Positions 16,360-42,012 of a DNA stretch of 62,233 nucleotides are shown in pieces. This DNA comes from Methylovulum psychrotolerans. Lineage in GTDB: Bacteria > Pseudomonadota > Gammaproteobacteria > Methylococcales > Methylomonadaceae. A model generated the notes under the pieces. That model searched no databases, was not told the origin of the DNA, and saw only the letters and a list, made by a program, of their open reading frames with translations. The position numbers and the translations under genes are program-made. Every line of letters begins with the position of its first letter. Within the stretch, counting starts at the first letter, position 1. Location: positions 266,373 through 328,605 of the forward strand of contig NZ_PGFZ01000004.1 in the NCBI RefSeq assembly GCF_002923755.1. Reading direction: 5' to 3'.

Positions 16360-16474
16360 AATGATCCCATGTTGGCTCTGTCCGCTGTGCTTTTGGTGCA
16401 GGCAAGCAAATGCCAGTTTTAGTATTTTATTTCAATAACATAGAAACCGCCCTCAATTTAAGGCAGAGAGGTGT

Positions 16475-18076: not shown

Positions 18077-18121
18077 AATATCTATTTTGATAGGCTGTTA
18101 TTTATTTAGATAGTTTTTACT

Positions 18122-18150
18122 ATAGTGACTTTTTGGCAAAAAGCCACTAT
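18122..18150. promoter_or_regulatory. Candidate RtcR upstream activating sequence
   Basis: A 29-bp near-perfect palindrome with arms ATAGTG(A)CTTTTT and AAAAAG(C)CACTAT around a GGC centre; one opposing pair mismatches. It lies about 50 bp upstream of the -24 element of rtcB, a normal place for an enhancer-binding-protein site. The flanks carry a direct repeat TTTACTATA, so a second half site is possible. Confidence 0.5.
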
Positions 18151-18198
18151 TTACTATAAGTGCTTGATAAATTTATCATTATATTATAGTTGGACACT

Positions 18199-18214
18199 TG
18201 GCGCGGCCTTTGCA
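18199..18214 (+). promoter_or_regulatory. Sigma-54 (-24/-12) promoter of rtcBA
   Basis: TGGCGCG, four bases, TTGCA. The invariant GG (18200-18201) and GC (18212-18213) are exactly ten bases apart. The expected start point is near 18225, giving a leader of about 115 nt before rtcB. The adjacent rtcR gene supports the call. Confidence 0.8.
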
Positions 18215-18339
18215 ATGGTGTAAGTAAAGCTTTTATAAACTATTGTATATAAAGGCTTGGGGATAAGCTTCTCCTAAACGTAAGCGAAGACGCTACATTG
18301 CCGGCATTTTGCCAAAGCCAAACCTAAGGATGATAAACC

Positions 18340-19569: not shown

Positions 19570-20605
19570 CGAGGGTATTGAAATTGACGGTAGCCAAGGT
19601 GAAGGCGGCGGGCAAATTTTGCGCACCGCCTTAACCTTATCGGCATGTCGCGGTGTGCCTGTGCATATCCGTAACATCCGTCAAGGCCGCCAAAACCCTG
19701 GTCTGATGCGCCAGCATCTGGCTTGCGTCAAGGCCATTGCCGATGTTTGCGGAGCCGAGGTAAAAGGGGCTTTTATCGGCGCGACGGCGCTAGCGTTTAC
19801 CCCCGGCCCTATCAGGGCGGGGGATTACCGCTTCGCGGTGGGCACGGCGGGTAGCAGCACCTTGGTGTTCCAAACCGTCTTGCCTGCTTTGCTGATGGCG
19901 GGGCAACCCTCACGTCTGACTTTGGTCGGCGGTACACATAACCCGATGGCTCCCAGTTTTGATTTTATCGAGCAGGCGTTTTTGCCGGTCTTGCGCCAAC
20001 AGGGCGGCGAATTTACCTGCCAATTGCACCGCTACGGTTTTTATCCGGTCGGGGCGGGGGAATGGACGGTAACGGTTAAGCCCGCCGCCGCTTACCGCCG
20101 CTTATGTTTGGAAACGCGCGGCGAGTTGGTGACGGCCCACGCCCGTTGTCTGAGCGCGAAAATTCCCGGACATATTGTAGTCAGGGAAAAAGACCGTTTA
20201 TTGCGCCGCCTGAAATGGCCGGAAGAGAGCATCAGCACCGCGCAAATCGACTCCTTGGGGCCGGGCAATAGTGTCATTGTGCAAATGGATTATGCGCATA
20301 TTACTGAGTTGGTGGCAAGTCACGGGGCGTTGAATATCAGTGCCGAAAAAGTCGCCGATAGTGCCGTTGATGCCTTACGCCGCTACCAAAGCAGTTCCGC
20401 CCCGGTCGGGCATTATCTGGCCGACCAATTGTTGTTGCCTTTGGCTTTAGGGGCAGGTGGTTCGTTTATTACCGGAAAATTGACCGAGCATTGCCGGACG
20501 AATATGAATGTTATCCGGCAACTGTTGGCGGTGTCAATTGATGCGGAAGAAGTGGCGCAAGGCTGGAGGGTTACGGTGGACGTAAACTCACAAACACGCC
20601 GTTAA
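19556..20605 (+). CDS. rtcA: RtcA, RNA 3'-terminal phosphate cyclase
   Basis: A 349-residue cyclase that converts RNA 3'-phosphate ends to 2',3'-cyclic phosphates through an AMP-histidine intermediate. The N terminus (IDGSQGEGGGQILRTALTLS) and the catalytic histidine region (GKLTEHCRTNMNVI) are clear. It starts with GTG at 19556 inside the end of rtcB, so the two are translationally coupled. Its end overlaps the convergent gene at 20588 by 18 bp. Confidence 0.95.
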   Translation: MSKVSEGIEIDGSQGEGGGQILRTALTLSACRGVPVHIRNIRQGRQNPGLMRQHLACVKAIADVCGAEVKGAFIGATALAFTPGPIRAGDYRFAVGTAGSSTLVFQTVLPALLMAGQPSRLTLVGGTHNPMAPSFDFIEQAFLPVLRQQGGEFTCQLHRYGFYPVGAGEWTVTVKPAAAYRRLCLETRGELVTAHARCLSAKIPGHIVVREKDRLLRRLKWPEESISTAQIDSLGPGNSVIVQMDYAHITELVASHGALNISAEKVADSAVDALRRYQSSSAPVGHYLADQLLLPLALGAGGSFITGKLTEHCRTNMNVIRQLLAVSIDAEEVAQGWRVTVDVNSQTRR

Positions 20606-21841
20606 AAAGTCCTGATAAGCCGCCAGCACCTGTTCATGGCTAATTTGCCGGGTGCTTCTGGCCAGAATCTCGACGATACCCAACACGCTGGGCAACAAGG
20701 TGGCGTTGAGTTCTATCATACCTTCAAAGTCGGTGCTGTCGGTGATTTTATAGGCTTGCCCCGGCGGGCAAGTCACCGCCTCTAATTGGGCAGTCAAACC
20801 GCTGTCATATCGGGAGACAAATTTGTTCTGGTAGCCGGAGCGTTTGGATATGGCTTCATAAGCCCAGTTATCATAATACAAAACAGACACTTGCTTGTGG
20901 GTGGCGGTCAGGCGGGCGGATATTCTCTTAACTTTGCCGATGCCTTCGGCGATACCTGCCTCATCCAGCTCAAAGGTGCAAAGCCCCGGAAAATATAAGC
21001 AACGGTCAAAGCCTTGGGCTTCATAGGCTTTTGATAACGGCAGTATTTGCCAGTTATCCGGTAGAAGGAATTGTCGGTTACTGACAAATAACGCCAATAA
21101 ACGGGTAAATTTCGAATCGCCAGTAATCAGCACTGCCTCTTTTGTCAGCACCGCCGCCAGTAACTGCGTTAAAGCCTGGTCAAATGCTTGTAGTACGGCG
21201 GATAAATCCACAGTGGTAGCACCGCGCAAATAGCGGTTGATATAAAGCCAGCCGATCAGGCTGGGATGGGCGCTGGAGTCGATAAATAGCTGTTCGCCGT
21301 GGCTAAGCATGACGCGGCTATCAATGGCTATATCGGAAAATTGCGCCAACACCGCGTCCAGATTCCAAACCGGATGCCGATAATCTCCGCTCTCTTGATA
21401 GTAACGTCCGGTGCTGCGGTTTTGGTATTCGCGTATCGACAAATCCCAAAATAACAGGCGCAAACGGCCATTAAGCTGTTGCTTCAGCGCGTCCAGAGCC
21501 GTTAACGACAACGCGAACAAACGTTGGTCATTGGTTTCGTTAATCAAATCTTTCTCAATGGAGAGATACTCTTTCGGTTGCGGATAGTCCGGCGTAAACG
21601 TCGGATCATTCAAGACCGGATTGCCGAACCTGAAATCGCCGACGATCACAAAAACTTCTGACTCCGGTGTGGCGGTGGCCAGTTCTTTCGTGATGCGCGG
21701 ACTCCAAATCGGTAAGCCACCGACCCCAATCAGGCGGCTAGGTAGCGTCAGTTCCGGCAGTTGCCGGGTTGCCAGCGCGTGCCGGAGCCTGACCACATGC
21801 GACGGGCCAATGATAAGACGTTCAGGCGTTGTTTTGGACAT
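20588..21841 (-). CDS. Unrecognised protein, possibly SGNH-fold
   Basis: A 417-residue cytosolic-looking protein without a signal peptide. The ATG at 21841 is chosen because everything upstream in frame merely overlaps the previous gene. The opening (RLIIGPSHVVRLRHAL) has a serine in the place where SGNH hydrolases and their relatives carry Block I, and DSSAHPSLIGWLY has the aspartate-histidine layout of Block V. Between them lie VFVIVGDFRFGNPV and LRLLFWDLSIRE, which look like Rossmann-type strands. This similarity is suggestive only. It is the last gene of the exoprotein/Ton-like cluster, 19 bp after the coiled-coil gene, so it may modify or monitor the surface structure. Confidence 0.6.
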   Translation of the reverse strand: MSKTTPERLIIGPSHVVRLRHALATRQLPELTLPSRLIGVGGLPIWSPRITKELATATPESEVFVIVGDFRFGNPVLNDPTFTPDYPQPKEYLSIEKDLINETNDQRLFALSLTALDALKQQLNGRLRLLFWDLSIREYQNRSTGRYYQESGDYRHPVWNLDAVLAQFSDIAIDSRVMLSHGEQLFIDSSAHPSLIGWLYINRYLRGATTVDLSAVLQAFDQALTQLLAAVLTKEAVLITGDSKFTRLLALFVSNRQFLLPDNWQILPLSKAYEAQGFDRCLYFPGLCTFELDEAGIAEGIGKVKRISARLTATHKQVSVLYYDNWAYEAISKRSGYQNKFVSRYDSGLTAQLEAVTCPPGQAYKITDSTDFEGMIELNATLLPSVLGIVEILARSTRQISHEQVLAAYQDFLTACL

Positions 21842-21860
21842 GATGGGCCTCGTAATTAGC

Positions 21861-22535
21861 TTATGGGTTTGGCGCGGCGGCATCCGCTTCGGCTGACTGT
21901 GCATGGCTCGCCTCAGCAAATTCGGTGACTTTAAGGTCCGCCAATTTAAACTGATAGCTTTCCACGGTGTTTTGGGTTTCGACTTTACCGATACCGGTAA
22001 ATGGCTCCAATTCCGCCGCTTTACTCCAAAAACCTTTGTCTTGGTATTTGCCGACCAACGCTTGGTTGACCTCCAGCAATTGGTGGTTCTTATCACGGCA
22101 TTGGCCTATCCACTGCTCACGTTCCTTGACAGCGGCGACCAGCAATTGGTTATCGTTTTGGATTAATTTCGCCTGCGCAACAATATCTTTCAGTTTATTG
22201 TGCAAGTTTTGCAGTTTGTCACGTTCGCCTTGCAGTTGTACCGCCAAGGTGCTGTTGCTGGTGTGCAAAGCCTCTTCTTGGCTTTTATGCAGCACCAATT
22301 CGGCTTGTAAAGGCCCTAACTGTTGGGCAGTGCCTTCTAGTTTTTTAACTTGGTCGATTAAAGCGGTTTTTTCCGCTTCTAAGGCTTGCTTTTCTTCCGT
22401 CAACTGCCGGACGGCACCTTGGGCTTTTTTTAAAGCCAGTTGTCCGGCGGATTCCTGCTTAGGTGCGGCCAAGGCGGGTACACTTAACAGGCAAGCTAAC
22501 AGCAAACCGCTATAAAGAGTGGATTTTGGGTTCAT
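21861..22535 (-). CDS. Exported coiled-coil protein of unknown function
   Basis: A 224-residue protein with a signal peptide (TLYSGLLLACLLSVPALAA) and a long heptad-rich coiled coil at about residues 35-160 (QLTEEKQALEAEKTALIDQV). A shorter C-terminal part (GIGKVETQNTVESYQFKLAD) is conserved-looking and ends in an alanine/proline-rich tail. It is probably a periplasmic spacer or scaffold. The gene sits 12 bp after the porin gene and 19 bp before the last gene of the cluster, so it likely works with the porin or the TonB-like protein. Confidence 0.75.
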   Translation of the reverse strand: MNPKSTLYSGLLLACLLSVPALAAPKQESAGQLALKKAQGAVRQLTEEKQALEAEKTALIDQVKKLEGTAQQLGPLQAELVLHKSQEEALHTSNSTLAVQLQGERDKLQNLHNKLKDIVAQAKLIQNDNQLLVAAVKEREQWIGQCRDKNHQLLEVNQALVGKYQDKGFWSKAAELEPFTGIGKVETQNTVESYQFKLADLKVTEFAEASHAQSAEADAAAPNP

Positions 22536-22547
22536 TTTTGTCTCCGC

Positions 22548-24344
22548 CTATATACGCATGTTCAAATCCAATACCGCCGAGTCAATATCTAATGGCGGGC
22601 CGTCAATGGCCTCGGTGCTGAACCAACGGAACATCAGCCAAGTATTTTTGGCCACACCGTAACTGCCGCCTAGCATCCAACCTTTGGCATCCGTACCGCC
22701 TTGATGGAAAACATTGTCGGTAAACGCGTCTAAAATAGCGTCACGTTGGATGTAACGGTAAGCGATAATGGTACTCCAATCTTTAAAGTATTTAATTTCC
22801 GGTTTACCGACATCCAAGCGGATTTGGAAGGCATCCGTCCTTGCCCGGTTGTTGCTGCCCAAATAGCCAGGAAATTCGCGCTCGATGCGGGCGGCATCAT
22901 AGCCTAAGTTTTTCGCATAATCGAATGACACTAAGGCATGGGTCGGGGCAAAGTCGGCAAAATCGTACATCACCGTCGCGTTGAATATTTTAAAGTCTGA
23001 GGCCAAGCCAAACAAACAGCCTTGGCCTTGTAGGCTTTGGCTATCGGTACAGCGGCTATTGCTGCCGTTATTGACGTTAATCGGCACTAAGGTATTGCCC
23101 TTTTGGATAAACTGCGGGGCTGTCCAATCATAAGTAAAGCTGTCGCTGGCATTGCTGCGGGCGCGGAGATTTTCATAATCGTAGTATGCGGCGGCGACTT
23201 TCAGGCGCGAATCGTTATGCACCAGCCAATCGGCACCGATTTGCCCGCCGAACAGCCATTTGTCGACAGTGGAAAAGTTGACTTCCTGAATCGGAAACGC
23301 GCCTAAAGTGACAAATAATGAATCGGGGGTCTGTGGCCCCATTTGCAAGCCGAAGCGGCTATTAGCTTGGGCGGGCTGATAGTATTTGACACGGTCTTGC
23401 TCTTGGTTGGTATGCCAACGGAACGTACCCGCAAAACCTTCAAAACTCAAATCCGGGCTGTAGACCATTTCGGTGGATACCCAAGGGTTGGCAATCCGCC
23501 CGCCGGAAAGGGTAAACCAGTCATTATGTTGGCTGTCGACAAAATCGTATTGCGCAAAGGCACGGTCAATGGCAAGTTGGAACGATTGCCCGGTATTGCC
23601 GAGCGTCTGGTTGCTGGAGACCGGACTGTACTGGTTAGTGGTAGACAAGCGCAAACCCGCCTTTAAGCCGTCGGTGATTTTCGCATCAATGGCTAGGCGA
23701 AAGCGTTCGCGTAGGCGTAAACGGTCTTCGGTGGTGTTGAGATATTGCTGGTTTCTGCTTTGCGCCGCCAATTGGCCGCCATCTTGATTGATATTCAGAT
23801 AATCCAGATAGGAGCTTGAGCTATTGGCCGAGCCGAAAATGTCATCTTGGGCGCGCAAGCGCATGTCACCGGAAATTTTGATGTTATTTAACCATTCCGG
23901 CAACGCGGCGGGTATGCCCCATTGTTCTTTTTTGGCATCCGCTTTCACTTCGCTCACTACTTTACCCGTCATATTGGCAATCACATCTTGGCGGATCTCT
24001 TCTTTGACAAATTCAGGCACATAAGCAAAACGGATACTTTTGGCATCTTTTGGTTTGCCAGCGTCTTGGCTTGCGGTGCTGTCCGGCACAGCAGGGGGCT
24101 GTTTGGCCTCCAGCGCCGCTTTCGCTTTGGCGGCTTTCATCAGGCTTTCTGCCTTCTCTTTATTTAATAAGCCTTGTTGGACAAAAATATCAATCAGATT
24201 GACGGCAGTGTTTTTTAAGTTAAGCAGTTCCTCACGCTCACCCGCAATTTCTTGCTTGAGCTTAAGCAAATCCTCTTTTTCATCCGCCATAATCGGCGTT
24301 ACCAGCGAGCTTGCCAGTAGGGCCGCCAAGGTTTTTTTGGTCAT
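22548..24344 (-). CDS. Putative outer-membrane porin (Porin_5-like) with N-terminal coiled coil
   Basis: A 598-residue protein using the ATG at 24344, followed by a signal peptide (KKTLAALLASSLVTPIMA). A coiled coil comes next (EDLLKLKQEIAGEREELLNL), then a region with many short amphipathic strands typical of a beta-barrel (ISGDMRLRAQDDIFG, ERFRLAIDAKITDGLKAGLR) that ends in L-N-M-R-I. This layout matches the putative porins annotated as Porin_5. The coiled coil could tether the pore to the periplasm or to the neighbouring coiled-coil protein. The gene lies 95 bp after the TonB-like gene. Confidence 0.82.
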   Translation of the reverse strand: MTKKTLAALLASSLVTPIMADEKEDLLKLKQEIAGEREELLNLKNTAVNLIDIFVQQGLLNKEKAESLMKAAKAKAALEAKQPPAVPDSTASQDAGKPKDAKSIRFAYVPEFVKEEIRQDVIANMTGKVVSEVKADAKKEQWGIPAALPEWLNNIKISGDMRLRAQDDIFGSANSSSSYLDYLNINQDGGQLAAQSRNQQYLNTTEDRLRLRERFRLAIDAKITDGLKAGLRLSTTNQYSPVSSNQTLGNTGQSFQLAIDRAFAQYDFVDSQHNDWFTLSGGRIANPWVSTEMVYSPDLSFEGFAGTFRWHTNQEQDRVKYYQPAQANSRFGLQMGPQTPDSLFVTLGAFPIQEVNFSTVDKWLFGGQIGADWLVHNDSRLKVAAAYYDYENLRARSNASDSFTYDWTAPQFIQKGNTLVPINVNNGSNSRCTDSQSLQGQGCLFGLASDFKIFNATVMYDFADFAPTHALVSFDYAKNLGYDAARIEREFPGYLGSNNRARTDAFQIRLDVGKPEIKYFKDWSTIIAYRYIQRDAILDAFTDNVFHQGGTDAKGWMLGGSYGVAKNTWLMFRWFSTEAIDGPPLDIDSAVLDLNMRI

Positions 24345-24439
24345 TATCGTTACTCTCATTACGGTATTTTGAATTCTATTGGCATTGCCCTTTAGGGCAA
24401 ACAACATTGCCGATCCGCCCAAAAGCTTGCGGACACGCC

Positions 24440-25114
24440 CTAAATCCTTGAGGTGACGCGCAGCTTAATCGGTTGCGGCATCGTTTCGGGCGGCGGTTTG
24501 GCTAAGCTGAAACGTAAGGTCGGCAGGGCGGCGCGGATGGCTTGATCGACTTCCGGCTTACCGCTGGGGCTGGCTAATTCAACGCGGTTGACGCTGCCGT
24601 CGGCATTGACCCAGACATTCATTTGCACGCTATAAGCCGCCTTACGCGCCGGGCTGTCCGTCAGTAGGCGTTGCAATTCCTCCTCCAGACCGCGTTTTAC
24701 TTGCCCGCCATACCAAATCGCGGCACTGCCTGCCGTGCCGCCTAACAAGCCGCGCCCACCTTTTTTACCGATTAGGCCAAAGCCATCAGAACCTGCACCG
24801 CCATCGGCATCTACGCCCAGTTCTTCACCAGCGGGTTCAGCCGCCGCTTCGGGGGCGGGTTCAGGTTCTTTTTCCGGTTCCGGTTCAGGCATTTTTTCCG
24901 GCTCAGGCTCCGGTTCCGGCGGTTTTTGCTCAGGCGGCGGCGGGGGTGGCGGAGGCGGCGGTTGGATCATGGTAATTTGCTGCATCTGTTTTTTCGCCTG
25001 CGCCGGTTTTTGAAACATGCCTTGTAGAAAATACACCGCGACGGCGATCAGCAGGGCTAAAACAATACCGATAATCAGCGGCAAGTTGCGTAACCAACGT
25101 TGGTATTTCTCCAT
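24440..25114 (-). CDS. TonB-like energy transducer
   Basis: A 224-residue protein with the classic TonB plan. One membrane segment occupies residues 13-31 (LIIGIVLALLIAVAVYFLQ). A Pro/Glu-rich periplasmic spacer follows (ten consecutive prolines, then PEPEPEPEKMPEPEPEKEP), then a glycine-rich stretch. The TonB C-terminal domain comes last (about 145-224, YSVQMNVWVNADGSVNRVEL, FSLAKPPPETMPQPIKLRV). It is encoded 6 bp after exbD, so ExbB-like, ExbD and this protein form one motor coupling proton-motive force to an outer-membrane partner. The partner is not identified, though a porin is encoded next. Confidence 0.9.
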   Translation of the reverse strand: MEKYQRWLRNLPLIIGIVLALLIAVAVYFLQGMFQKPAQAKKQMQQITMIQPPPPPPPPPPEQKPPEPEPEPEKMPEPEPEKEPEPAPEAAAEPAGEELGVDADGGAGSDGFGLIGKKGGRGLLGGTAGSAAIWYGGQVKRGLEEELQRLLTDSPARKAAYSVQMNVWVNADGSVNRVELASPSGKPEVDQAIRAALPTLRFSLAKPPPETMPQPIKLRVTSRI

Positions 25115-25120
25115 AACCGC

Positions 25121-25525
25121 CTACTTGACCAGTTTTTGGGTCACCAGACCCAGTTGGCTAATTTCCAGCCGGGTGACAATATCTAACACTTCAATGACTT
25201 TTTCATACTGTACGGCGGCATCAGCCTTCACTACCACGGGCAAATCCGGTGTCGCCGCTTTATATTGCCCTAAGCGTGTTTCCAAATCGGCCAGAGAAAT
25301 CGGGTAAGTATCCAAATACACCGTACCGTCTTTGGTGATGGAAATGGCTTTAGTTTTTGGTTTCGACAACGACGGCGTACTGCTGGCTTTGGGCAGGTTG
25401 ACGGTGATGCCCTGTACAGTCGCCGTGGTCATAATGATGAAGATCAACAACAATACATAAGCCACATCGAGCATGGGGGTGATATTGATGTCATCGTAGA
25501 CTTTGCCTTCTTCCCCGACTTTCAT
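25121..25525 (-). CDS. exbD: ExbD/TolR-family proton-channel subunit
   Basis: A 134-residue protein with one membrane segment containing the essential aspartate (NITPMLDVAYVLLLIFIIMT, D20) and a periplasmic domain (AISITKDGTVYLDTYPISLA). It couples proton flow through the ExbB-like channel to TonB. The start overlaps the stop of the upstream ExbB fusion gene (ATGA), and the TonB-like gene follows after 6 bp. Confidence 0.94.
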   Translation of the reverse strand: MKVGEEGKVYDDINITPMLDVAYVLLLIFIIMTTATVQGITVNLPKASSTPSLSKPKTKAISITKDGTVYLDTYPISLADLETRLGQYKAATPDLPVVVKADAAVQYEKVIEVLDIVTRLEISQLGLVTQKLVK

Positions 25526-27417
25526 GAGCTTAACCTCTCTTGTTTGGCGGCGATGCGCCCGGCAATAATGTTGATGAACTCTTCAGTGAACACAACTTTT
25601 AAATCCGGTTCGCCGCGTTGGCGGTCGGCGATACGTTTGGCGATCATCGCTAAAAACTCATCAGTAAAAACGTGCATGTCGGCGGTGATGTCCTTAATTT
25701 GCGTGAGCAAATAGTTGTAAGCGAACAAGGCGGGGATAGCCACCGCCAACCCGGCAACTGTAGCCGCCAAAGCACCGGAGATACCTGGGGCAATCGAGTT
25801 GATATTGACATCTCCTGTCGCGGCGATTACCGCAAAGGTGATCATTACCCCCATAACCGTACCTAGCAGACCTAAGAACGGCCCGCCGGAAATGGCTATG
25901 GTCAGCAACACCATATTTTTGTTGAGTTTTTGGCTCTCCCGCACAACAGCGGCATCCAAGCGGGTACGCACCAAGTTTAAGGCTTCGGCGGTCAGCGGGG
26001 TAACGCCCATGCCATCACCAAAATTCACTTTCAACTCATGCACGCCAGCATGGTAAATGTGATAAATCGGCGAGCTTTGGAAATGGTCATGCTTGCCGAC
26101 GATGGCGGCGAGAAAATCAGAGTCGTTGACTTCTTGCTCGTCTTCGTTTTCTTCCCGATCCAACGCATCCAAATGTGCCGCATCGACATTACGGTATTGC
26201 TTGAGGAAAGCGGCGTTATCCTTACCTGCCCGCCGTAAAGCCAAGCCCTTACCGATCATCACTAACAGGCTGATGACTAACATCACGCCGCACAAGGCGA
26301 TGACCACCCAGCCGTCTACCGTCAAACTTTGCAGGATAATGACGAAATAATTGGGGCCTTCGGCGGAACCTCCGGTTTCGTCCTGACCCAAATTCAGGAC
26401 GCTAAAATCGGGGCTTTGGCTACGGAATTGCAGTTTAAGCCAATCGGGGCTACGCGCCTGTTTGGCGATCTGCACTTCATCAAGCAAGCCAGTTAAACCT
26501 TGCCCGATACTGACCGACGGATTCATGGCCGCGAGTTTGATGGCGGTGTTGCCGACGGCCTGGCCGTTCAGGTATAAGGTCAAACGGTCCGCTTGCGCCA
26601 CTAAGGCAATTTGTTGCCATTGGCCTAATTGCAGGTTGGCGGGTAACGTTTGGCTAACGCCGCCGCCTACGCCCTGATAGCTGGCGGTGATAGCCGAGCC
26701 TTGTAGCGTTAAGGTGATTTCAGCCGCACCTTCTTTGGCCTGTACCAATACAGCGTTGGTTTGGGCTTGGTCAATCTTCGCCCAAGTAGTGAATGTCCAG
26801 CCGCTGTCTGGCGTAATGGCAAGTGCCGGGGCGGCGTTAACGCTAATACCGCCTTGCCCGTCAAATTTAGCCGCCGACCCTATCCAGCCCGCAGGGTCGA
26901 TAGTGGCTTTGGAAGCCGAGGCATGGAGGCTATAGGCCGTGGCATCTTGCGGCAAGGTTTCGCCATCATTGAAATGGTAGACTAAGGCTTGGTTGACATC
27001 GTAAATGCCTTGCGGGTCTGAAGCATCGGCAACTTTGGGGTTGCCATAATACAGAGTGAACACATCGGTACTGACACCGCCGCGTACTGTCGGCAGTTTT
27101 ACCCAAACCAAACCGACTTCGGCCAGCGGATCGACTTTTTCGATGGCATATTTCAGTGCCGTTTTGTCATCCAACATAAAACGCAAGTCTTTGCCATTTT
27201 CGGCCAGCTCGGCAAAATAACCGAAATTGCCGGTATGCAGGCGTAACAAAACCGGCACGTCGCTCAGCGTCTCTTGGATGTCCGCCCCTGTTGCGCCGGC
27301 ATCTACCGTTAAAGGTTTGCGTGAAGACCAATCGTTATTCCACCAAGCCAAGGCCACGGTAGGTAACAAAGACAGCAGCAAGGCCAGTTTAAGAGAATTA
27401 CGGGTAGTTTTTTTCAT
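25522..27417 (-). CDS. DUF2341/LamG-ExbB fusion: extracytoplasmic sensor joined to a proton channel
   Basis: A 631-residue protein, far larger than ExbB (about 240). A signal peptide (LKLALLLSLLPTVALA) leads into a DUF2341-type domain at about 25-150 (WWNNDWSSRKPLTVDAGAT, FTLYYGNPKVADASDPQGIY). A LamG/concanavalin-like domain follows at about 165-345 (SAAKFDGQGGISV, GLTGLLDEVQIAKQARSPDW). The C-terminal half is MotA/TolQ/ExbB, with membrane segments near 365, 505 (GGPFLGLLGTVMGVMITFAV) and 555 (ALAATVAGLAVAIPALFAYN). The lectin-like parts would face the periplasm and could bind glycan or the exoprotein. It lies 56 bp after tpsA and overlaps exbD by 4 bp. Confidence 0.9.
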   Translation of the reverse strand: MKKTTRNSLKLALLLSLLPTVALAWWNNDWSSRKPLTVDAGATGADIQETLSDVPVLLRLHTGNFGYFAELAENGKDLRFMLDDKTALKYAIEKVDPLAEVGLVWVKLPTVRGGVSTDVFTLYYGNPKVADASDPQGIYDVNQALVYHFNDGETLPQDATAYSLHASASKATIDPAGWIGSAAKFDGQGGISVNAAPALAITPDSGWTFTTWAKIDQAQTNAVLVQAKEGAAEITLTLQGSAITASYQGVGGGVSQTLPANLQLGQWQQIALVAQADRLTLYLNGQAVGNTAIKLAAMNPSVSIGQGLTGLLDEVQIAKQARSPDWLKLQFRSQSPDFSVLNLGQDETGGSAEGPNYFVIILQSLTVDGWVVIALCGVMLVISLLVMIGKGLALRRAGKDNAAFLKQYRNVDAAHLDALDREENEDEQEVNDSDFLAAIVGKHDHFQSSPIYHIYHAGVHELKVNFGDGMGVTPLTAEALNLVRTRLDAAVVRESQKLNKNMVLLTIAISGGPFLGLLGTVMGVMITFAVIAATGDVNINSIAPGISGALAATVAGLAVAIPALFAYNYLLTQIKDITADMHVFTDEFLAMIAKRIADRQRGEPDLKVVFTEEFINIIAGRIAAKQERLSS

Positions 27418-27473
27418 GGTTTAGCTTGGGTTGATTAAAAATAATTTAGCTGTTGCCCAAAATAATGGGTCAC

Positions 27474-33400: not shown

Positions 33401-36400
33401 CCTTGGCGCCGCTGTTTAAGGCGATATTCTTACCGTTCAGGGTCAGGCGTTTTTCAGGCGGATTGCTGATGACAATATTGGTATTCCCTGTGCTGTCTAA
33501 CGGGTACAGCCAATTTAAGCCACCGGAACCTTGGCCGAATAATACCGTCAGACCATCGCCCGATACCGAAGTCAGGCTACCTGCGGCTAAGGTCAATTGT
33601 TGGCTGGCATTCAAGGCCAAAGTGCCAAACGGCACTTTCACTACCCCCTGTTGGTTGATGTTCGGGGCATTGATGGTCAAACTGCCATCGGCGGAATAAA
33701 CCGCACCCGGCGTGTTGCCGCTGTTTTTAATGGTAACGGTATGGTCGCCGCCACTGACAGAAATCTTATAATTGCTTAAAGTCGCCGGATAGACTTGGCT
33801 GGCGGTAATGTTTAAATCCCCCGCCAATTTTAATTCGCCCAGATAATCTTTAGTATCGCTACGGACACGGATGCCAATAGCACGGACATCACCTTGGCTG
33901 TCCAAATTGACTTTGTTAAAGCCATTAAAACTTAGGCCTCCAACCAAATCAATGCCTTTGGCGGCGACTGTCAATTGCCCAACCCCGGTTTTAGCGGCGG
34001 GTGCTAAGGTACTGGAAAAGGTGCCGTCACCCAAATCCGTATCGACCCGGCTTTGGCTGGAACCCAACTTGGCGTAAGCGGTGTTCAACGTCACTTGCCC
34101 GTCAGTGGTTTTCAGGGTCGGCGTATCCAAGACGATTTGCTGGCGGGCGGTTAAGCTGACATTGCCTTGAAATTCGATAGCGCCGGCATATTTGCCGTTT
34201 GCCCCCAAGACATCGGTTGTCAACAGCAAACTATCAAAACCGCCATTATTAAGCGGCTTTTCATTAAATAAAGCCCGGCCACTGTAGGTGTTAGAAGCGA
34301 TAGAGCCACCTTCGGCCAAATCCTTAGGGATAAATTGAGTATCGGTTTCGGCAATGACAATCGTACGCGGTAGGGCAGGGTTTATATCATCAGGAAATAG
34401 ACCGCCGCTGATCGGCAACACCGGCTTATTGCGTAAGCCCCGGTTAAGTTCAACGCTAAGCGTACCGCCAGCGGCAGTGCCGCCGCCGCTATGGGCGCGT
34501 AATATGCCATCCGCTAAAATACCTTCACCTGCTTTAAAATTAATGCTGCCGCCTGCGGAAGTAATGGTTTTGGAGACGGTTTCCGGCTTACCTGTGCTGA
34601 GGTTGGTCTGTTGAAAATCCAGTTGTTCTGAGGTGCCTGACACGTTAATGACCGAGCCGGCTCGGCTGACGATATAGCCGCGATTGGCGGTCAAACTGAC
34701 GCTGCCACCCGCCAACACCTCACCTGTTTTCAGGCCATAGTTGCTCACTTCGGGCTTAAACACGCCTTTCGCCAATAAGCGGCTGTCTGCCCCCAACCAA
34801 ATGCCTTGCGAGGCATAAAAACCTTTGTCGCCACTGGTCGGTGTGTTGATGTTCAGGGCAATCGCCCCGCCGGGTGTGCTGATTGTGCCGTCCACAAAAA
34901 TGGAAGTGTCGGAAGACAGTGTTACCGAGCCTGCCGCATCCGTTTGGATTAACGCCCCTGTACCGATACTGAGGGCTTCGGCGCGGTTTTGCGTCAACAA
35001 CTCGCTAAAGGTCAAGCTCAGATTCGCGGCATTCCTTTCGCTGTCAGGTAAGGTGGTGATGGCCGTAAAATCTTGCAGCTGGCTACCTGAGGCTTGGGTG
35101 ATGGCAGTAGTATCCACTAGCCAATTGTTTTGCCGGACAGTCAGGTGGACGTTATCGGCGACTTTTAGGCCATGCTGGTTAGCGGTGAGGTTGTAATTGG
35201 CAAAGCCGCCTTGTTGGAAGAAATCCGGAGCTAAAACCAGCGGTGTGGTGGTCGCGCCTGTATGGGTAGGCACATCACTGGCGGTGCCGATGACGATTTC
35301 ATTTGTGTTCAGGCTTAGGCTACCGCCTTCGTTAATGCCAAACGCGGTCACGCTACCGTCCATCAGCAGGCTGGAAGACACGCCGCCGCCGTCATGGGTG
35401 GCGGCGGTCAGGCTGATTGAGCCGCCTTTGCCCGCCGTAATTTTGCCTTGGCTATTGAGCCATGCGCCGCCGTTGGCATTAATTTGGCTGCCCTGTGCCA
35501 AGGACAAATCACCTTGTTCGGAAACCAAGGTGACGGAACCGCCTTCACTGGCAATCAAGCCCAAGGTATGACCAGGCTTACCGTCAATGACATCGTTTAC
35601 CCATAGCCCCGATACATCAATCAGTGCCGAACTGCCGAGGTTTACCGTACTGGGCTGCAAGGCATCGTTAATGCTGATCGGGTTGAGCTTAACCGTACCT
35701 GCATGGGCGGTAATTGTCCCTTGGATGTCAAAACCGCTCGCGGCTAAATTAAGGTTACCATAGACAGGCAAATCCAAATTGGCCCCTTTTTGTAAGCTGA
35801 CCGAGCCGTTGGTTTTGATGCTGACGTTAGTGATGCCGGAGCCTTTAAATAGTTGGGCATCCAATTGTAACGCCGCCGCGTCGGTAGAACTGTCCGCTGT
35901 TCTGGGCAAGGCATCAGTAAAGCCCACATCGGCTAAATGTTCGCTTTTATTGAACACCACATCTTGTTTGCCCAATAAATTATTATTGCTTAAATTAATA
36001 TTTAAGGTGCTGCCAGTGGCTTGGCTATCTGCTGTGCGCTGCAAAGTACCCGCCACAGTGGAGCCGTCCAACGTGCCGTTCAATAAGGTTTCATAAGCGC
36101 TGATATTTAAAGTCCCGCCCGCTTTGCCGTCGGTATAACCAGCTTCAAAATACTTAACCGCCAAGCCCGGAATCGACCACGTTTCCGTTACGCCCCATTT
36201 CGGATGGCTGTCGCTGATCTGGCCTAATATCGTGTCGTAATGGCGGTTGGCATCCGCTTGGGCAATATCGTAAATTTGCCCATCCGCCACCAGTTTAGTG
36301 GTGCTGATATAACCGTCTTGATACACTACCGAACCGCCGGAAAAATCAATGGTGCTGCCGGTCTGGGTAATGACATCGCCGCTGGATTGTAGGTTGACCG

Positions 36401-37994
36401 TACCGCCGGAAGTGCTGCGCTCATCAATATTGCGGGCGATGCGGTCGACCGCACCTTTAATGTCGGCGACCGGAATAGTGGCGGTGTTGACTGTGCCGTC
36501 GCTGTTATAGCTTATTGCCGCGTCGCGCAAATCCACCGAAACAGTTTGCCCGTACAAGACACCGTTACGCTGTAACGGCGCATCACGCAATTCGTTTTTA
36601 CGCAATTCGACTTTAACGACATTACGCTCCATCGCCACGTTGACGTTTTTCATCCCTGAAGCATCGACGACGCTACCCGTTTCCAAGAAAATCCGCGCAT
36701 TGCCTTTCACTGTGCTGTCGGTAGGGTCATCAACGGCCTTTATGCTAATATCGCCGGATTTCGCCTGTACTGTAGAGCCTTTATGCAAATACACATCGTG
36801 GCCGCTGATTTCTATTTGTGAGCGGCTTTGGGCTTGGGCATCTATCGCCGTGGTGGTTTTGTCGCTATCTAAGCCGACACTGGTGATACTGCCTGCCGCC
36901 AAATGTACGGTGGCTTTAGTGCCTAAGCCGTCATCCAAATCAGTCGTCCTAACCGTGGCTTTAGGCAAAAGCTTACCGCCTGTGCCGGACGGATCTTGAA
37001 TGCCTTCATGCGCTAGTAGCCTGACCGAACCGTTGAGACTAACCGAAGTCGTCGCCGAGGCTGTGCCTTCTTGGTTGACAGCGAAGCCCATTAAGCTGAC
37101 GTTACCGCGTTCCGCCAACACTTTGCCCATATTATTGACTTCACCACCCGTACCCACTTCAACCAACAAGCCACGGATATCCGAATCGCTGCCCGCTTCC
37201 TGCAAATAGACCTTATCTGTAGACGCGGCGAGGATAGTTTGCCCGTCCGGCGTTTCTATAGTCCCGGCATTATTAATGACCGGGGCGGCAATAATGACGC
37301 GGCCTCCCGGAGCATTAGCCTTAATATGCGCCCCTTGCTCGATAAAAATCTGGATTTTGATTTTATCGCCATTCTGATCATGGATAATATGGCCTTGGCT
37401 ATCTTTAAGATACACCTCACCATTACCTTGTAAGGCTGCCGAGCCATCAGTATTGAAGGCTTTAGTCAGACCATTTTGGAAGGTGGTTTCGCTTACGCCC
37501 AGCGTGCTGGCAACCAAGGTATTGACATTAACTTGTGAATTAGCCCCAAAGACAAAGCCGTTTTGGTTGACCAGATAAACTTGGCCATTAGCAGTTAAAG
37601 ACCCCATGATGCGGCTGGCATCAGCTTGGTGGATATTATTTAAGGCCACGGAAGTGGTGGCGGGCTGGTCGAAATGCACACTATTGTCAACGCCGATATT
37701 AAAGCTTTGCCAATCAATACTGGCCTTATCGGTGCTTTGGTTAATCGTCATGGCTGTACCCGACACCGAAGCCGCTGCGTGGCCTTGGCTGGCAATATCC
37801 ACTGGGGTATCGGATAAGGTGACGGGATTAACCGGCACAGGCAGTTCCGCGTAAGCCGCCGATATACCCGCGCCCATCGCCAAGCCCCCGGCGATTAAGG
37901 CGCGGATCGCCACAACCAAAGGCTTAGGGCTAAGCGGATGGCTAGGCCTTAACACTAGCGGGGAAGGTGTAGTTAAATGCGTTTGCGTCATCAT
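27474..37994 (-). CDS. Giant filamentous-hemagglutinin-like exoprotein (TpsA), 3506 residues
   Basis: A two-partner secretion exoprotein. An extended signal peptide (residues 1-48, cleaved near ISAAYAELPV) is followed by the TPS secretion domain at about 50-330 with INQSTDKASIDWQSFNIG and the NQNGFVFG motif. The body is a long right-handed beta-helix of degenerate repeats rich in Asn, Gly, Ser and Thr (for example GGSVTLVSEQGDLSLAQGS). The end resembles the DUF3739-type C terminus of FHA-family proteins. The only cysteines I noticed are C3492 and C3504, close to the C terminus. The protein should be exported by the TpsB encoded 9 bp upstream and stay on or leave the surface as an adhesin. The frame is intact over 10.5 kb. 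Confidence 0.93.
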   Translation of the reverse strand: MMTQTHLTTPSPLVLRPSHPLSPKPLVVAIRALIAGGLAMGAGISAAYAELPVPVNPVTLSDTPVDIASQGHAAASVSGTAMTINQSTDKASIDWQSFNIGVDNSVHFDQPATTSVALNNIHQADASRIMGSLTANGQVYLVNQNGFVFGANSQVNVNTLVASTLGVSETTFQNGLTKAFNTDGSAALQGNGEVYLKDSQGHIIHDQNGDKIKIQIFIEQGAHIKANAPGGRVIIAAPVINNAGTIETPDGQTILAASTDKVYLQEAGSDSDIRGLLVEVGTGGEVNNMGKVLAERGNVSLMGFAVNQEGTASATTSVSLNGSVRLLAHEGIQDPSGTGGKLLPKATVRTTDLDDGLGTKATVHLAAGSITSVGLDSDKTTTAIDAQAQSRSQIEISGHDVYLHKGSTVQAKSGDISIKAVDDPTDSTVKGNARIFLETGSVVDASGMKNVNVAMERNVVKVELRKNELRDAPLQRNGVLYGQTVSVDLRDAAISYNSDGTVNTATIPVADIKGAVDRIARNIDERSTSGGTVNLQSSGDVITQTGSTIDFSGGSVVYQDGYISTTKLVADGQIYDIAQADANRHYDTILGQISDSHPKWGVTETWSIPGLAVKYFEAGYTDGKAGGTLNISAYETLLNGTLDGSTVAGTLQRTADSQATGSTLNINLSNNNLLGKQDVVFNKSEHLADVGFTDALPRTADSSTDAAALQLDAQLFKGSGITNVSIKTNGSVSLQKGANLDLPVYGNLNLAASGFDIQGTITAHAGTVKLNPISINDALQPSTVNLGSSALIDVSGLWVNDVIDGKPGHTLGLIASEGGSVTLVSEQGDLSLAQGSQINANGGAWLNSQGKITAGKGGSISLTAATHDGGGVSSSLLMDGSVTAFGINEGGSLSLNTNEIVIGTASDVPTHTGATTTPLVLAPDFFQQGGFANYNLTANQHGLKVADNVHLTVRQNNWLVDTTAITQASGSQLQDFTAITTLPDSERNAANLSLTFSELLTQNRAEALSIGTGALIQTDAAGSVTLSSDTSIFVDGTISTPGGAIALNINTPTSGDKGFYASQGIWLGADSRLLAKGVFKPEVSNYGLKTGEVLAGGSVSLTANRGYIVSRAGSVINVSGTSEQLDFQQTNLSTGKPETVSKTITSAGGSINFKAGEGILADGILRAHSGGGTAAGGTLSVELNRGLRNKPVLPISGGLFPDDINPALPRTIVIAETDTQFIPKDLAEGGSIASNTYSGRALFNEKPLNNGGFDSLLLTTDVLGANGKYAGAIEFQGNVSLTARQQIVLDTPTLKTTDGQVTLNTAYAKLGSSQSRVDTDLGDGTFSSTLAPAAKTGVGQLTVAAKGIDLVGGLSFNGFNKVNLDSQGDVRAIGIRVRSDTKDYLGELKLAGDLNITASQVYPATLSNYKISVSGGDHTVTIKNSGNTPGAVYSADGSLTINAPNINQQGVVKVPFGTLALNASQQLTLAAGSLTSVSGDGLTVLFGQGSGGLNWLYPLDSTGNTNIVISNPPEKRLTLNGKNIALNSGAKVDLSGGGDLYAYEFITGPGGSTDVLDANTNGFTQKFAVIPSLGNSLTPYDPQEFAASGLSVGDSVYLSAGSGLAAGWYTLLPAHYALLPGAYLVTPQTGTQDMQPGVTVTDLAGTTIVAGRYGVASADTANSRWQGFTVESGSIARTYSQYTDYFANSFFTAKAATDGTVVAALPQDAGSLAISAQTGLSLGAELAAAPANNGRGGQVDISADHLAIVGRREELAAAGSGTVSLLAEDLNNLNAPSLLLGGIRSKTATGQRVSVSSKTLSIAGDADLQGQELLLAANQEVRIKSGAVVESTGKTNATGVALTVTEKGKDNSDGALVRLSSSAQAEVTRDKAVSGAIGTLVVESGAHLKSGHSMLLDSTKDTVFAGSIDMQGGSLALASSKISFGPAPTGTSGLVLASTQFSLDELTLTSASDFNIYGGINVNAGLININAAHINGFNNNGATANLSGDTIKLSNTQATADSSGTGTGILALNARQIELGSGSYALTGFATVNLNASTAIKGLGQVLASGTGQSSLLAAGNLSVAGDLNLNAGHFIGDAGATTAIDASGHQVNITALGAVDPTWTSGLGVSWSITGDAITSNGRFDLPSGIVKLTALKGDIALNNGARLDVSGRTLNFADVVKYSAAGNVSLTANQGNITLANGAGINLAGAANGTQQASDAGTLDIAVTQGQFNWQGNITALNGAQANSAVKQGSFHLNANTLGEGGFSALNSQLAAAGFTQALTVEQHTGDLTVAATDTVTAQQLALLADQGNVAINGTLNASGKQAGSVSVYGHNGIILGSTGHIIASTTTAGAAGGSVILDTVHRDDTGSGLLDLSQTGGTIDVSAGSGGTGGSVHLRTGRDDTLHTVNATAIHSHIIGADATRTALEATRVYDGQSTIKASNITAWQHDTSSFMASAPSLVNDSGTAIDLLPGLEIRSTGNLSLNTTWDFLNWRYADSQGNKTLPGFLTLHAGGNLNVKASITDAFATAYLPGQSSMKLQDVLQTGRSWSYDLSADGNVNLANSYLAADPYGTGTQVSTQVMVRTGTGSIDINAGGNIQFVADPNDSTASAAVYTMGTTAEYTRGQLLSGSVPGVPAKLTGETDAEYLNRLDPVQMNTLLRYGYFDESRLGLVFMVAEYPTQGGAIGLHAGGNINGIYTGQQTSDWLVRSGSISDNSRPTAWGINISGDRTNPVNGISSKGKHYFNQNIGSLAGGDVNIEAGGSVNNLSVMLPTTGKPFGQLSEATNQWTQTGTVVNGGGNLQLKAGNDIVGGEYYIGRGAAELDAGGSVSKAANGLGAILEEGDGSFTVQARQDVVIASVLNPTVIKQNNPLPLAAGGDSLFFTYSDTSAVNLLATAGNIVLENDVDGIRNSKNVDTSTSSGFEYAVYPGSLSAVAFSGDIRIDNSMTLMPSAQGTLALLAYRNIGTDSDAAQLINVNMSDADLSFLPGVNSPAQQLEGSLSDGLIRARERLDPSTPDATLIHAATPVHSGASAKPKIIAQTGDIGFSSNSEVTFFLPQAADFIAGRDISNLSLFGQNLSVNDVTRVVAGRDITFDALISTDGIVQANDKGIELGGPGQLQIQAGRDISLGGSTGINTIGNTKNTSLSATNGADINVLAGISDKVDYAGFINKYFAVGSSYLSNAKLLDDNGNDQLAGLSPAQKLVVLEQLPDARKQKLLLDVLFNEIKLSAAAAAVAPESQRKALYQQGFDAIAALFPGSKYQGDLSLVFSQIKTLAGGSIDLAVPGGAVNVGLAGTVGGISKGADQLGIVAQQTGDINAVSNGDFNVNQSRVFTMGGGDIAIWSSTGNIDAGKGAKSAISAPAPITTVDAKGNIVTTFPPIVSGSGIQTINPQDKTKKQGNVYLAAPVGVIDAGEAGISGGQIIIAATAVVGAANISASGSTSGVPTAVATPVVPSGASSAAASAAKQATTTNEEDNNAANGDGDKKKTTVSLLSADVVGYGDCSVADVRDGKKGCGG

Positions 37995-38003
37995 ATTGCC
38001 GCC

Positions 38004-39614
38004 CTAAAATTCGTAAGCCATGCGAAAGTCAACGCGTTGGGTGCCGACATTGACCGTACCTTGCCTTTCCAGCGGATAAGCCCAATCCAATTCGCCCAGC
38101 CAGTGCTTAAAAAACTGTAGGCGCACCCCCGCCCCTGTGCCGGCAAGGCGATAATACTGGGGGTTCGGTGCTATGGCATGGTCAATCCACAAATAAGCAT
38201 AATCAAAAAATGCGTGCAGGCGCAGGTTTTGGGCAAACTCCCAATCGCGCCGTTTCAGTTGCGGACTTTGCAATTCCACCGACAAATTGGCCCCGTCATC
38301 ACCCAATTGTTGGGTCTGATGGTAACCGCGCACACTTTGCGGGCCGCCGACGGCAAATTGCTCGTTACTGATAAGAGGCATATTGGTAATCTGTCCTGAC
38401 GCGCGGGCCGCCAAACGCATATCCCACGGCAATTCGCGCAGATGTTTAAGTTCTGTGGTGAAATAGGCGTAGCTGGCTTTCGCCTTATAGCGGCGGTTTT
38501 CAAATTCCTGATCGTCGCTACCGAATCCACGCAACGAAAAGTGCAGGGCGGAATTGAGCGTTGTCAGTACGCCTGAAGAACGCCAATTGGCATCATAACC
38601 GATTAAAAAAGGCACATAGCTGATCGGCGAGGTTTGTAGGTCTTGACCCTGCTGGCTAATGCCCTGATTAAAACTTTTATAATCAACCCCTAAATTTAAG
38701 GTATGGCCATAGTTGTTAATGCCAGGCAAGGGCGTGACCAAACGCGCCCCATAAATTGCCCCGCTACCGACTACTGATAAGCCGCCGACACTCGCCCCCA
38801 ATTGGGTATTGGAACTGATGCCGATACCGTAAAGCGCCAAACGGCTATCCGCCCAATGGGTAGGTAAGACATAAGTGCCCGACCAGACATCCACTTCATC
38901 TGAATTTTCCGGCGACACCTGATACTGTAATGATGCGCTGTGGAAACGTTGCCATAGGTTGTCATAACGTAGTGAACCGATCAGGCGTGAACGGGAGGTG
39001 TGTTCGGAATTGCGCCCGTTCATTTCGAGGCTGCCATGTAAGGGTAATTGGTCTTTCACACGCAATTCCACTTCAGTGGTGCCGGGTGTAGATCCGGCTC
39101 GGAAAATCGGCGTGATTTGGCGGTCTGCCGACTCTTTGCCCAAATCGGCTACCTGTTCTTGTACTTTGGGCATATACGGTACTTGTCCAGTCGCTAAAGC
39201 AGGTACTTTGTCCCGAATTTTGCCTAAGAAAAAATACCGCGACCCTGTTACTTTCAGCCGCTCCACCGCCCCTTCAACGACTTTCAGCCGCACTAAGCCA
39301 TTCACCACATCCTGTTCGGGAATATCCACCAATACAGTCGGATAGCCATTATCTTTGTACAAGGCTTCTAAGGCTTGGCGGGCTTTTTCGACATCATCAA
39401 CGGTTTTGGCAGGCCCTAAAAAAGGATAGAGTTTTTTTTCAACCAGGGTTTGTGCTAATACGGTATTGCCGTCAACCTGCATTTCCAACATATCAAACGT
39501 AGGTAAAGCTTCGGTAGGGGCAGCAGGCGTGGCGGTAACTTGCTGCGCCGCTGCACCTGATGAAAAAAACCACACGCTAGTGCTTATTAAGGCGTATTGG
39601 GCTAACTGCTTCAT
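38004..39614 (-). CDS. TpsB two-partner secretion transporter (ShlB/FhaC family)
   Basis: A 536-residue outer-membrane Omp85-family transporter. The ATG at 39614 is preferred because a signal peptide follows (KQLAQYALISTSVWFFSSGA); a longer frame reaches 39671. Two POTRA domains lie at about 45-205 (VEKKLYPFLGPAKTVDDVEK, VNGLVRLKVVEGAVERLKV). The barrel follows, with the conserved loop-6 motif VRGY in FAVGGPQSVRGYHQTQQLG. It ends in phenylalanine (FRMAYEF), the usual signal for barrel insertion. It is the first gene of the exoprotein operon, 9 bp before tpsA. Confidence 0.94.
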   Translation of the reverse strand: MKQLAQYALISTSVWFFSSGAAAQQVTATPAAPTEALPTFDMLEMQVDGNTVLAQTLVEKKLYPFLGPAKTVDDVEKARQALEALYKDNGYPTVLVDIPEQDVVNGLVRLKVVEGAVERLKVTGSRYFFLGKIRDKVPALATGQVPYMPKVQEQVADLGKESADRQITPIFRAGSTPGTTEVELRVKDQLPLHGSLEMNGRNSEHTSRSRLIGSLRYDNLWQRFHSASLQYQVSPENSDEVDVWSGTYVLPTHWADSRLALYGIGISSNTQLGASVGGLSVVGSGAIYGARLVTPLPGINNYGHTLNLGVDYKSFNQGISQQGQDLQTSPISYVPFLIGYDANWRSSGVLTTLNSALHFSLRGFGSDDQEFENRRYKAKASYAYFTTELKHLRELPWDMRLAARASGQITNMPLISNEQFAVGGPQSVRGYHQTQQLGDDGANLSVELQSPQLKRRDWEFAQNLRLHAFFDYAYLWIDHAIAPNPQYYRLAGTGAGVRLQFFKHWLGELDWAYPLERQGTVNVGTQRVDFRMAYEF

Positions 39615-39768
39615 AAAAAATAAGATAATCGGCAACGCTGCATTAGAAAAACCCAATGCTTTCCGCGCCAAGAGAAGGGTTTATAAGTACATGAGTTATG
39701 CTTAATGCAGATAGCATGCCAATATTTACGCTATTGATTCATAATAGAAAATAATGGCTTTGCTAGTG

Positions 39769-41674: not shown

Positions 41675-42012
41675 AGCCGCTTTCCTAATAAGGGTAAATG
41701 AACGCTTGTGTATAATGTTACAAATAAGTAAGGTAACGTATTGGTTGAGGCAGTTATCATGCCACTTCAATACGATATATACTTAACTATATAACGATAA
41801 ATAAAGCAAGCATTAACGGGTTATGAGGATTATTTTTGTAGCCTGTGCAGAACGCTTTAATGTCATAAAGCCGACAAAATACGTTAAGGCCAGTTGGATT
41901 ATTGGCGTAAAACCGACAAGATAGCCGCACCAATACAGAGTCGCTGATGCCTGCGAAAGCTCTGAAAATAGCGTAACGTAGTGATAGGTAACATGATGGA
42001 GTGGGCAGAATC

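Follow-up and report, generated by a model that had tools for sequence, protein, structure and literature searches.

Why should a gene pair for two-partner secretion (TPS), made up of a giant exoprotein (TpsA) and its outer-membrane transporter (TpsB), be followed directly by genes for a Ton-type motor, when type V secretion is described, in the part of the literature consulted, as requiring no energy source or gradient (PMC5422565)? The question is raised by a locus of the methane-eating bacterium Methylovulum psychrotolerans within a 62,233-nucleotide stretch of contig NZ_PGFZ01000004.1 (positions 266,373 to 328,605; this whole stretch is called the window, and unlabelled coordinates refer to it). 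There, a TpsA with a DUF3739 domain near its C-terminus is followed by an ExbB motor protein fused to DUF2341, by ExbD, by a TonB-like protein, by a Porin_5 outer-membrane barrel and by a coiled-coil protein. Comparison with other genomes indicates that the DUF3739 TpsA and the DUF2341-ExbB motor are inherited together nearly without exception, and that the exoprotein has a conserved C-terminal tail, in many cases with a cysteine pair after it; as far as the literature searched shows, these two points are new here.

Co-occurrence of exoprotein and motor

Two samples were used, one of 370 genomes for the class and one of 397 for the phylum; six DUF3739 genomes are common to both, leaving 36 distinct ones. 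In the class sample, DUF3739 was found over the cut-off in 23 genomes and DUF2341 in 29, and all 23 lie within the 29. The DUF2341 protein is shown to be an ExbB fusion in 22 of the 23. In the 23rd (G146) the single DUF2341 match falls in a 1632-residue open reading frame (ORF) that is not an ExbB, a motor fragment opens one contig, and DUF3739 is found 45 bases short of the end of a different one. The six genomes with DUF2341 and no DUF3739 (G119, G171, G185, G205, G246 and G364) revealed no ExbB fusion in the fetched stretches, the DUF2341 ORF running to the contig end in G205 and G364. One further genome, G256, has a DUF3739 match below the cut-off and only ExbB-like matches, with no DUF2341-type motor. 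In the phylum sample, 19 genomes carry DUF3739, and the 18 that carry DUF2341 are all among them; the ExbB fusion was shown in 15 of these, and three (G553, G625, G711) were judged from frame length only. In the nineteenth genome (G635) the motor is cut by the contig start. Fisher's p, which ignores relatedness, is about 2e-31 for the class and about 3e-30 for the phylum, and co-occurrence in two samples rules out chance clustering. The counts thus point firmly, at the level of gene content, to joint inheritance in the genomes sampled.

The coupling does not extend to two-partner secretion at large. TPS domains were found in 27 of 84 class genomes and DUF3739 in five of the same 84, which argues that it is specific to the DUF3739 class. 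Nor does it depend on adjacency, since the second TpsA (C1:577136) and second motor (C1:465704) of the window's own genome lie about 110 kb apart. That second motor set (G000:C1:465704-467464, locus L033) is diverged, and the second TpsB-TpsA pair is locus L214. Two genomes, G730 and G581, have three DUF3739 matches and one DUF2341 match each.

Layout of the locus

The genes of the window are as follows, in the order in which they are read; families were assigned by Pfam profile search.

42234..44009, minus strand: u2, exported PstS-like protein of 591 residues, second tandem copy, 69% identical to u1
39995..41770, minus strand: u1, exported PstS-like protein of 591 residues, 323 bp upstream of the tpsB ORF, assigned by model and Foldseek
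38004..39671 (ATG start possible at 39614), minus strand: tpsB, outer-membrane TPS transporter (POTRA_2, ShlB, Omp85)
27474..37994, minus strand: tpsA, exoprotein of 3506 residues (TPS domain 74-324, DUF3739 3325-3435)
27474..27557, minus strand: C-terminal tail of TpsA, with the box SLLSADVVGYG and then a cysteine pair, preceded by a low-confidence linker
25522..27417, minus strand: exbB, DUF2341-Laminin_G_3-MotA_ExbB fusion of 631 residues (Pfam)
25121..25525, minus strand: exbD (PF02472, E 7e-29)
24440..25114, minus strand: TonB-like protein with a hydrophobic N-terminal segment, a proline-rich part and a TonB_2 C-terminal domain
22548..24422 (ATG start possible at 24344), minus strand: Porin_5 outer-membrane barrel (Pfam E 1.2e-180; alignment of 33)
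21861..22535, minus strand: predicted periplasmic coiled-coil protein, judged by eye from the sequence
20588..21841, minus strand: last ORF ("possible SGNH"), apparently lineage-specific

A preliminary description of this DNA had drawn the set as the eight genes from tpsB to the last ORF, and their number, common direction (all minus strand), order and spacing were confirmed. From ORF coordinates, 9 bp separate tpsB from tpsA, 56 bp tpsA from exbB, 6 bp exbD from tonB and 12 bp the porin from the coiled-coil gene, and exbB and exbD overlap by 4 bp; with inner ATG starts, 95 bp lie before the porin and 19 bp before the last ORF. In the 56-bp gap after tpsA no minus-strand terminator-like site was listed from the sequence. 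The assignments of tpsB, tpsA, the ExbB fusion, exbD, the TonB-like gene and the porin also hold. That is, the exoprotein has a TPS domain and its partner POTRA and Omp85 parts, as in two-partner secretion, and the Ton/Tol-type motor is represented by an ExbB/TolQ core, ExbD and a TonB C-terminal domain. The motor part of the fusion is nearest TolQ by profile (MotA/TolQ/ExbB). ExbD carries the motif NITPMLD, whose Asp has a role in motors of this type. The DUF2341-laminin-G part, which had been called a sensor, is lectin-like by profile only, and the sensing role was a guess.

Neither TpsB nor the Porin_5 protein has a Plug domain match in Pfam, so that the locus lacks a TonB-dependent transporter by that mark. 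The alignment of 33 Porin_5 proteins reveals no N-terminal TonB box by eye; it does have a conserved N-terminal portion ahead of the barrel. No Pfam family was matched by the coiled-coil protein or the last ORF. The latter, the possible SGNH protein, was rejected as a core part: its only blastp relative among the relative loci compared is in L052, and it is apparently not conserved. At the other end, comparison of loci indicates that the conserved set starts upstream of tpsB, at the two PstS-like genes (39995-41770 and 42234-44009).

Further upstream, window positions 44713-47238 hold genes for an extracytoplasmic function sigma factor, a zf-HC2 anti-sigma-like protein and a subtilase, which may be a regulator. 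On the far side, positions 16475-20605 hold an RNA repair cluster (RtcR, RtcB and RNA 3'-phosphate cyclase), in which the RtcB and cyclase genes are oriented towards the end of the TPS-motor set.

Gene neighbourhood in relatives

Gene order was counted by hand in a first set of 40 relative stretches, including one from the window's own genome. In 24 of the 40, the nearest labelled gene upstream of the DUF2341-ExbB fusion is a TpsA ORF on its strand; of the rest, TpsA is separated from the fusion by three ORFs in L039, two stretches (L051 and L052) are cut, and 13 lack this arrangement. The ExbB fusions form two groups, one nearer to that of the window at about 49-82% identity and a second at about 39-47%; TpsA neighbours occur in both.

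A larger survey took the best 80 of at least 569 confirmed matches in named genomes, annotated by profiles built from relatives; as the closest matches these form an uneven sample, mainly from Pseudomonadota. Seven of the 80 were too short for the upstream side to be judged. Among the 73 loci with at least 1 kb upstream, a TPS gene lies within 900 bp upstream on the same strand in 61 (TpsA in 42, TpsB in 19), and in five of the remaining 12 such genes occur at another place in the stretch. Downstream, where at least 4.5 kb could be seen, ExbD and TonB each follow in 69 of 70 loci and Porin_5 in 68; the coiled coil, counted as same-strand homologues no more than 6.5 kb from the motor, follows in 61. 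A TPS gene adjoins the motor also in one Anaeromyxobacter metagenome-assembled genome (L131) and in one from Verrucomicrobiota (L144). The proposal that the motor set belongs to the TPS system is therefore supported, by co-occurrence in 23 of 23 class and 18 of 19 phylum genomes and by these 61 upstream neighbours of 73; the contrary outcome that had been envisaged, motor sets usually found without a tpsBA pair, did not come true.

Some loci hold additional genes around the coiled coil. PpiC-type isomerase and/or YbjN-family genes lie near it in L129, L128, L114, L151 and L297, which cover Bradyrhizobium, Burkholderia, Methylosinus and Magnetospirillum, plus the genome G535 discussed below. 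Ankyrin-repeat proteins stand between porin and coiled coil in L099 (14493-15248) and L130 (14276-15205), and an 812-residue TPR-repeat protein follows the coiled coil in L096 (15488-17926). Other loci of the second motor group have ORFs of about 780-890 residues in the same place.

PstS-like partners upstream of the TPS genes

The preliminary description was right to place motor, porin and coiled coil with the TPS genes, and missed the conserved PstS-like partner upstream. The two proteins, u1 and u2, match no Pfam family (a single chance-level match, E 0.3), and u2 has a weak match to an NCBIfam PstS family (E 0.0047). An AlphaFold model of u1, built on a 14-row alignment, reached a pLDDT of 72 and a pTM of 0.78. 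All 27 PDB matches found by Foldseek at E<=1e-3 are phosphate-binding proteins by title, with modest TM-scores (0.40-0.70 by target, 0.22-0.35 by query). A profile of the u1 family searched against PDB sequences gave just a weak match to the phosphate receptor 1twy (E 0.18). With medium confidence, u1 is thus predicted to have a PstS-type binding-protein fold.

In 20 further loci, chosen for a reachable TPS start after relatives had earlier been seen beside TPS genes, a PstS-like gene lies upstream of the TPS genes on the same strand in all 20: directly before TpsB in 18, before TpsA in one (L325) and with an ORF between in one (L310). The u1-family profile found nothing in eight genomes without DUF3739. 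The phosphate loop of PstS has the form R..GSGT, and 24 of 34 distinct family proteins of at least 450 residues retain R..[GS]SGT.

A different, DING-type protein of the PBP_like_2 family stands just before tpsA in L296 (genome G535), encoded by a plus-strand ORF at 16392-17564. Relatives of it occur near TpsA in G675 and G635 (L253, L298, L248), and it also matches the u1-family protein of L322. A 439-residue minus-strand ORF of L296 had been considered as the PstS relative and was rejected, the real gene being the overlapping plus-strand ORF.

Three observations adjoin this part of the locus. The window's genome has a third PstS-like gene, on contig C2. In L312 a GspD-type secretin gene (130-2016, minus strand) is found two ORFs upstream of the PstS-like gene, in divergent orientation. 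ORFs of 628-630 residues are found at a similar place in L313, L314 and L320; the arrangement recalls the Hxc type II system beside lapA-pdtA.

The C-terminal tail of TpsA

The 3506 residues of the window's TpsA contain just two cysteines, at -15 and -3 from the end. From 116 distinct complete TpsA ends, 113 scored at least 100 bits and 106 were left after removal of near-copies. A relaxed tail motif was found in the last 110 residues of 96 of these 106 DUF3739 ends, against 4.6 of 106 shuffled ends and 75 of 2305 windows from TpsA bodies. As a control, 20 TPS frames without DUF3739 were taken, each being the longest open frame entering the stretch; three run off the contig end, and none of the 17 usable ends has the motif. 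The consensus is hydrophobic-hydrophobic-[ST]-V-[ED]-V-[LIV]-G-[FY]-G-[DE]. At least two cysteines lie within the last 60 residues in 36 of the 106 ends, and cysteines elsewhere in TpsA average 0.75 per frame (51 frames, mean length 3270). The final 420 residues, modelled from a 56-row alignment at a mean pLDDT of 85.5, are predicted to be rich in beta strands and to include a helical insert; a stretch at pLDDT 44-54 comes next, and then the tail. This C-terminal domain model had no PDB match at E<=1e-3. Alignment and model together indicate that TpsA of this class ends in a conserved tail behind a linker of low model confidence.

Where would such a tail lie? HxuA and HMW1 have a C-terminal anchor with a disulfide that, in the portion of the account available, is expected to remain in the periplasm (PMC5422565), and by analogy the tail of the window's TpsA would lie in the periplasm too. 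By eye the tail resembles TonB boxes, such as DTVEVAGQA and EAVEVVGVS in two receptors of the window's genome. The TonB boxes of SusC-type receptors are look-alikes as well.

We found no statement of a C-terminal TpsA box or of a near-obligate DUF3739-DUF2341 coupling in the open-access literature searched, the primary PdtA/PdtB paper not being among the texts consulted. Nor did that literature yield anything on DUF3739, or anything joining DUF2341, ExbB and filamentous; a stator paper, in its accessible portion, names DUF2341 as a domain of unknown function (PMC12505986).

Comparison with known systems

The nearest published counterpart is the Pdt locus of Pseudomonas aeruginosa, which runs, according to the descriptions consulted, lapA, lapB, pdtA, phdA, pdtB, exbB2, exbD2, tonB4 and PA0696-PA0699; there PA0696 is a putative outer-membrane porin, PA0698 belongs to the YbjN family and PA0699 is of PpiC type (PMC2729926, PMC4971064, PMC7035377, PMC9769906). 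It is reported to be driven by phosphate starvation, PhoB and sigmaVreI (PMC4971064, PMC7035377). Associated homologues of the TPS, exbBD and PA0696 genes in several bacteria were noted in 2009 (PMC2729926), and in 2020 exbB2-exbD2-tonB4 was still called an uncharacterised putative TonB system (PMC7035377). The comparison is drawn from these descriptions. Both loci have TpsA, TpsB, ExbB, ExbD, TonB, a putative outer-membrane porin and a further small exported protein, and in the Pdt locus phosphatases of the DING-like type stand beside tpsA (PMC7035377, PMC9769906, PMC2225411). The window likewise has a TPS pair, exbB-exbD-tonB, an outer-membrane porin and, adjoining the TPS genes, exported proteins of PstS/DING type by fold, in a different sequence subfamily. 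G535 has a Pdt-like cluster on two contigs (L296, L297) with a DUF2341-type ExbB, Porin_5 and the coiled coil, and also YbjN, PpiC, LysR and the PBP_like_2 protein. The window differs in its one continuous series tpsB-tpsA-exbB-exbD-tonB-porin-coil, in the subfamily of its two PstS-like genes and in the C-terminal cysteine pair of TpsA; no YbjN or PpiC was found among its genes scanned with Pfam. With nearly the same parts in print (PMC2729926, PMC4971064, PMC7035377), this kind of system is already known in outline.

Two other systems are similar in part. In HxuCBA of Haemophilus influenzae, as far as described, a TpsA expected to be held at the surface by a disulfide-bearing C-terminal anchor serves nutrient capture (PMC5422565, PMC4873976). 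The difference is that HxuC is an outer-membrane haem receptor, whereas the window has a Porin_5 barrel and a dedicated motor. HxuC is a plugged TonB-dependent receptor that works on the general Ton motor of the cell. In P. fluorescens SBW25 the gene of a DING phosphate-binding protein precedes a haemagglutinin-like gene of 4083 residues (PMC2225411), and both products are reported to be extracellular under phosphate depletion (psp-Hxc-PFLU2428; PMC2225411, PMC5082522), these sources too having been seen in part. Type II secretion genes lie alongside in SBW25, and none was recognised among the window genes scanned.

Proposed mechanism and alternatives

The set is almost certainly a conserved functional unit, and the motor probably serves this TPS system. 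Whether the whole is a Pdt-type system in which giant TPS fibre, ExbB-ExbD-TonB motor, Porin_5, coiled coil and PstS-like proteins act together, with the motor working on the tail for nutrient capture, we regard as an evenly balanced question. On that reading TpsB would export TpsA N-end first, and the tail would remain periplasmic, in many cases secured by a disulfide loop of the kind described for HxuA and HMW1. The motor would act on the system from inside by pulling an outer-membrane or tethered partner, the tail being the preferred handle: TonB would most likely bind and pull it, and so open, hold or release the TpsB-fibre complex. Outside, the fibre and the PstS-like proteins would capture a nutrient in short supply, phosphate or a phosphate ester being the likeliest, and Porin_5 would be its entry route. 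A nutrient role of phosphate type has about an even chance; that the ligand may resemble phosphate is suggested by the PstS-type partners and by the phosphate control published for Pseudomonas. That the motor acts through the tail is put forward tentatively, and the fullest version, an exoprotein that is itself a client of the Ton motor, with TonB gripping a periplasmic box so that the proton-motive force pulls the fibre via TpsB, is speculative and rather doubtful.

Several findings weigh against this reading. Seven of the 73 surveyed loci have no TPS gene in the fetched stretch, and DUF2341-ExbB-ExbD-TonB sets exist without Porin_5 or an adjacent TPS gene (L070, L071, L207, L208; a further stretch, L072, is cut after TonB). 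The second TPS pair in the genome of the window (L214) has no PstS-like gene beside it, and the u1-family profile found nothing in the 19 surveyed loci where TpsB precedes the motor. It was likewise unmatched in 11 of 12 other DUF3739 genomes (G711 has one); in two of the 11, G535 and G675, and also in G635, a DING-type protein is near TpsA instead. The window's copies have degenerate phosphate loops (RNNGAAT and RNNGAAI), and no clear Pho box precedes the genes, the window having six loose matches against 2.8 expected, a number reached in 11 of 100 shuffles; loop and missing Pho box both speak against extending the phosphate reading to this organism. As to the tail, the strict pattern was found in 68 of 106 ends, and the relaxed version was widened after the strict misses had been inspected. 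The idea that the tail is a general TonB box was not upheld: a matrix derived from it recovered the box in just two of ten TonB-dependent receptors of the same genome among the top three matches (L294 top, L295 second; boxes placed by eye), so that the resemblance is partial and hypothetical.

Could the motor instead energise the porin? TonB would then open Porin_5 for a large or scarce solute, and TpsA would be a co-regulated receptor or adhesin, as HxuA is for HxuC. Porin_5 follows the motor in 68 of the 70 loci with enough downstream sequence, a phosphate-type partner is at hand, and the porin has the conserved part before its barrel; yet the protein lacks both a Plug domain and, by eye, an N-terminal TonB box, and the four motor sets just named do without it, so that this explanation is possible but doubtful. 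Energised type V secretion, in which the motor powers export of very long TpsA through TpsB, seems unlikely. The DUF3739 TpsA proteins are indeed long (open frames of 3295-5122 residues among matches over the cut-off), other lineages add PpiC-type isomerase genes to the locus, and Oar/PopC of Myxococcus offers an earlier case of protein secretion that depends on TonB, as outlined in the sources consulted (PMC11658791, PMC6434023). However, long TPS frames without DUF3739 (for example, in G109, 4185 to 29206 residues) occur in genomes with no DUF2341 match, and the available text describes PdtA/PdtB as a functional TPS system and mentions no need for a motor (PMC7035377).

A shared regulon would need no physical coupling at all, TPS and Ton sets being co-located by a common starvation signal, and the Pdt locus is indeed described, in part of the literature at hand, as one phosphate-starvation regulon that includes a type II secretion system (PMC2729926, PMC7035377). 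This is quite unlikely, since co-occurrence is near one-to-one even when the genes are unlinked, and among the 36 DUF3739 genomes one partner is found without the other just in fragmentary cases. Movement, which the preliminary description had listed, would have the motor slide the fibre along the surface, or extend and withdraw it, as a gliding or retraction device. Proton-driven motors do power gliding adhesins in Flavobacterium, according to the account consulted (PMC8986121), but nothing here points to movement: the scanned, family-assigned neighbours are export, channel, chaperone, regulator, repeat and solute-binding proteins, which makes it very improbable.

Significance

A subclass of very large exoproteins thus appears to be inherited with its own proton motor, which contrasts with the description of type V secretion as energy-free. 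The uncharacterised ExbB2-ExbD2-TonB4 system of the Pdt locus gains a concrete, testable candidate client, and surface fibres would be tied to solute capture, perhaps of phosphate. We know of no energised type V system and of no TonB client other than a plugged receptor; if TonB does grip the TpsA box, the locus would provide both.

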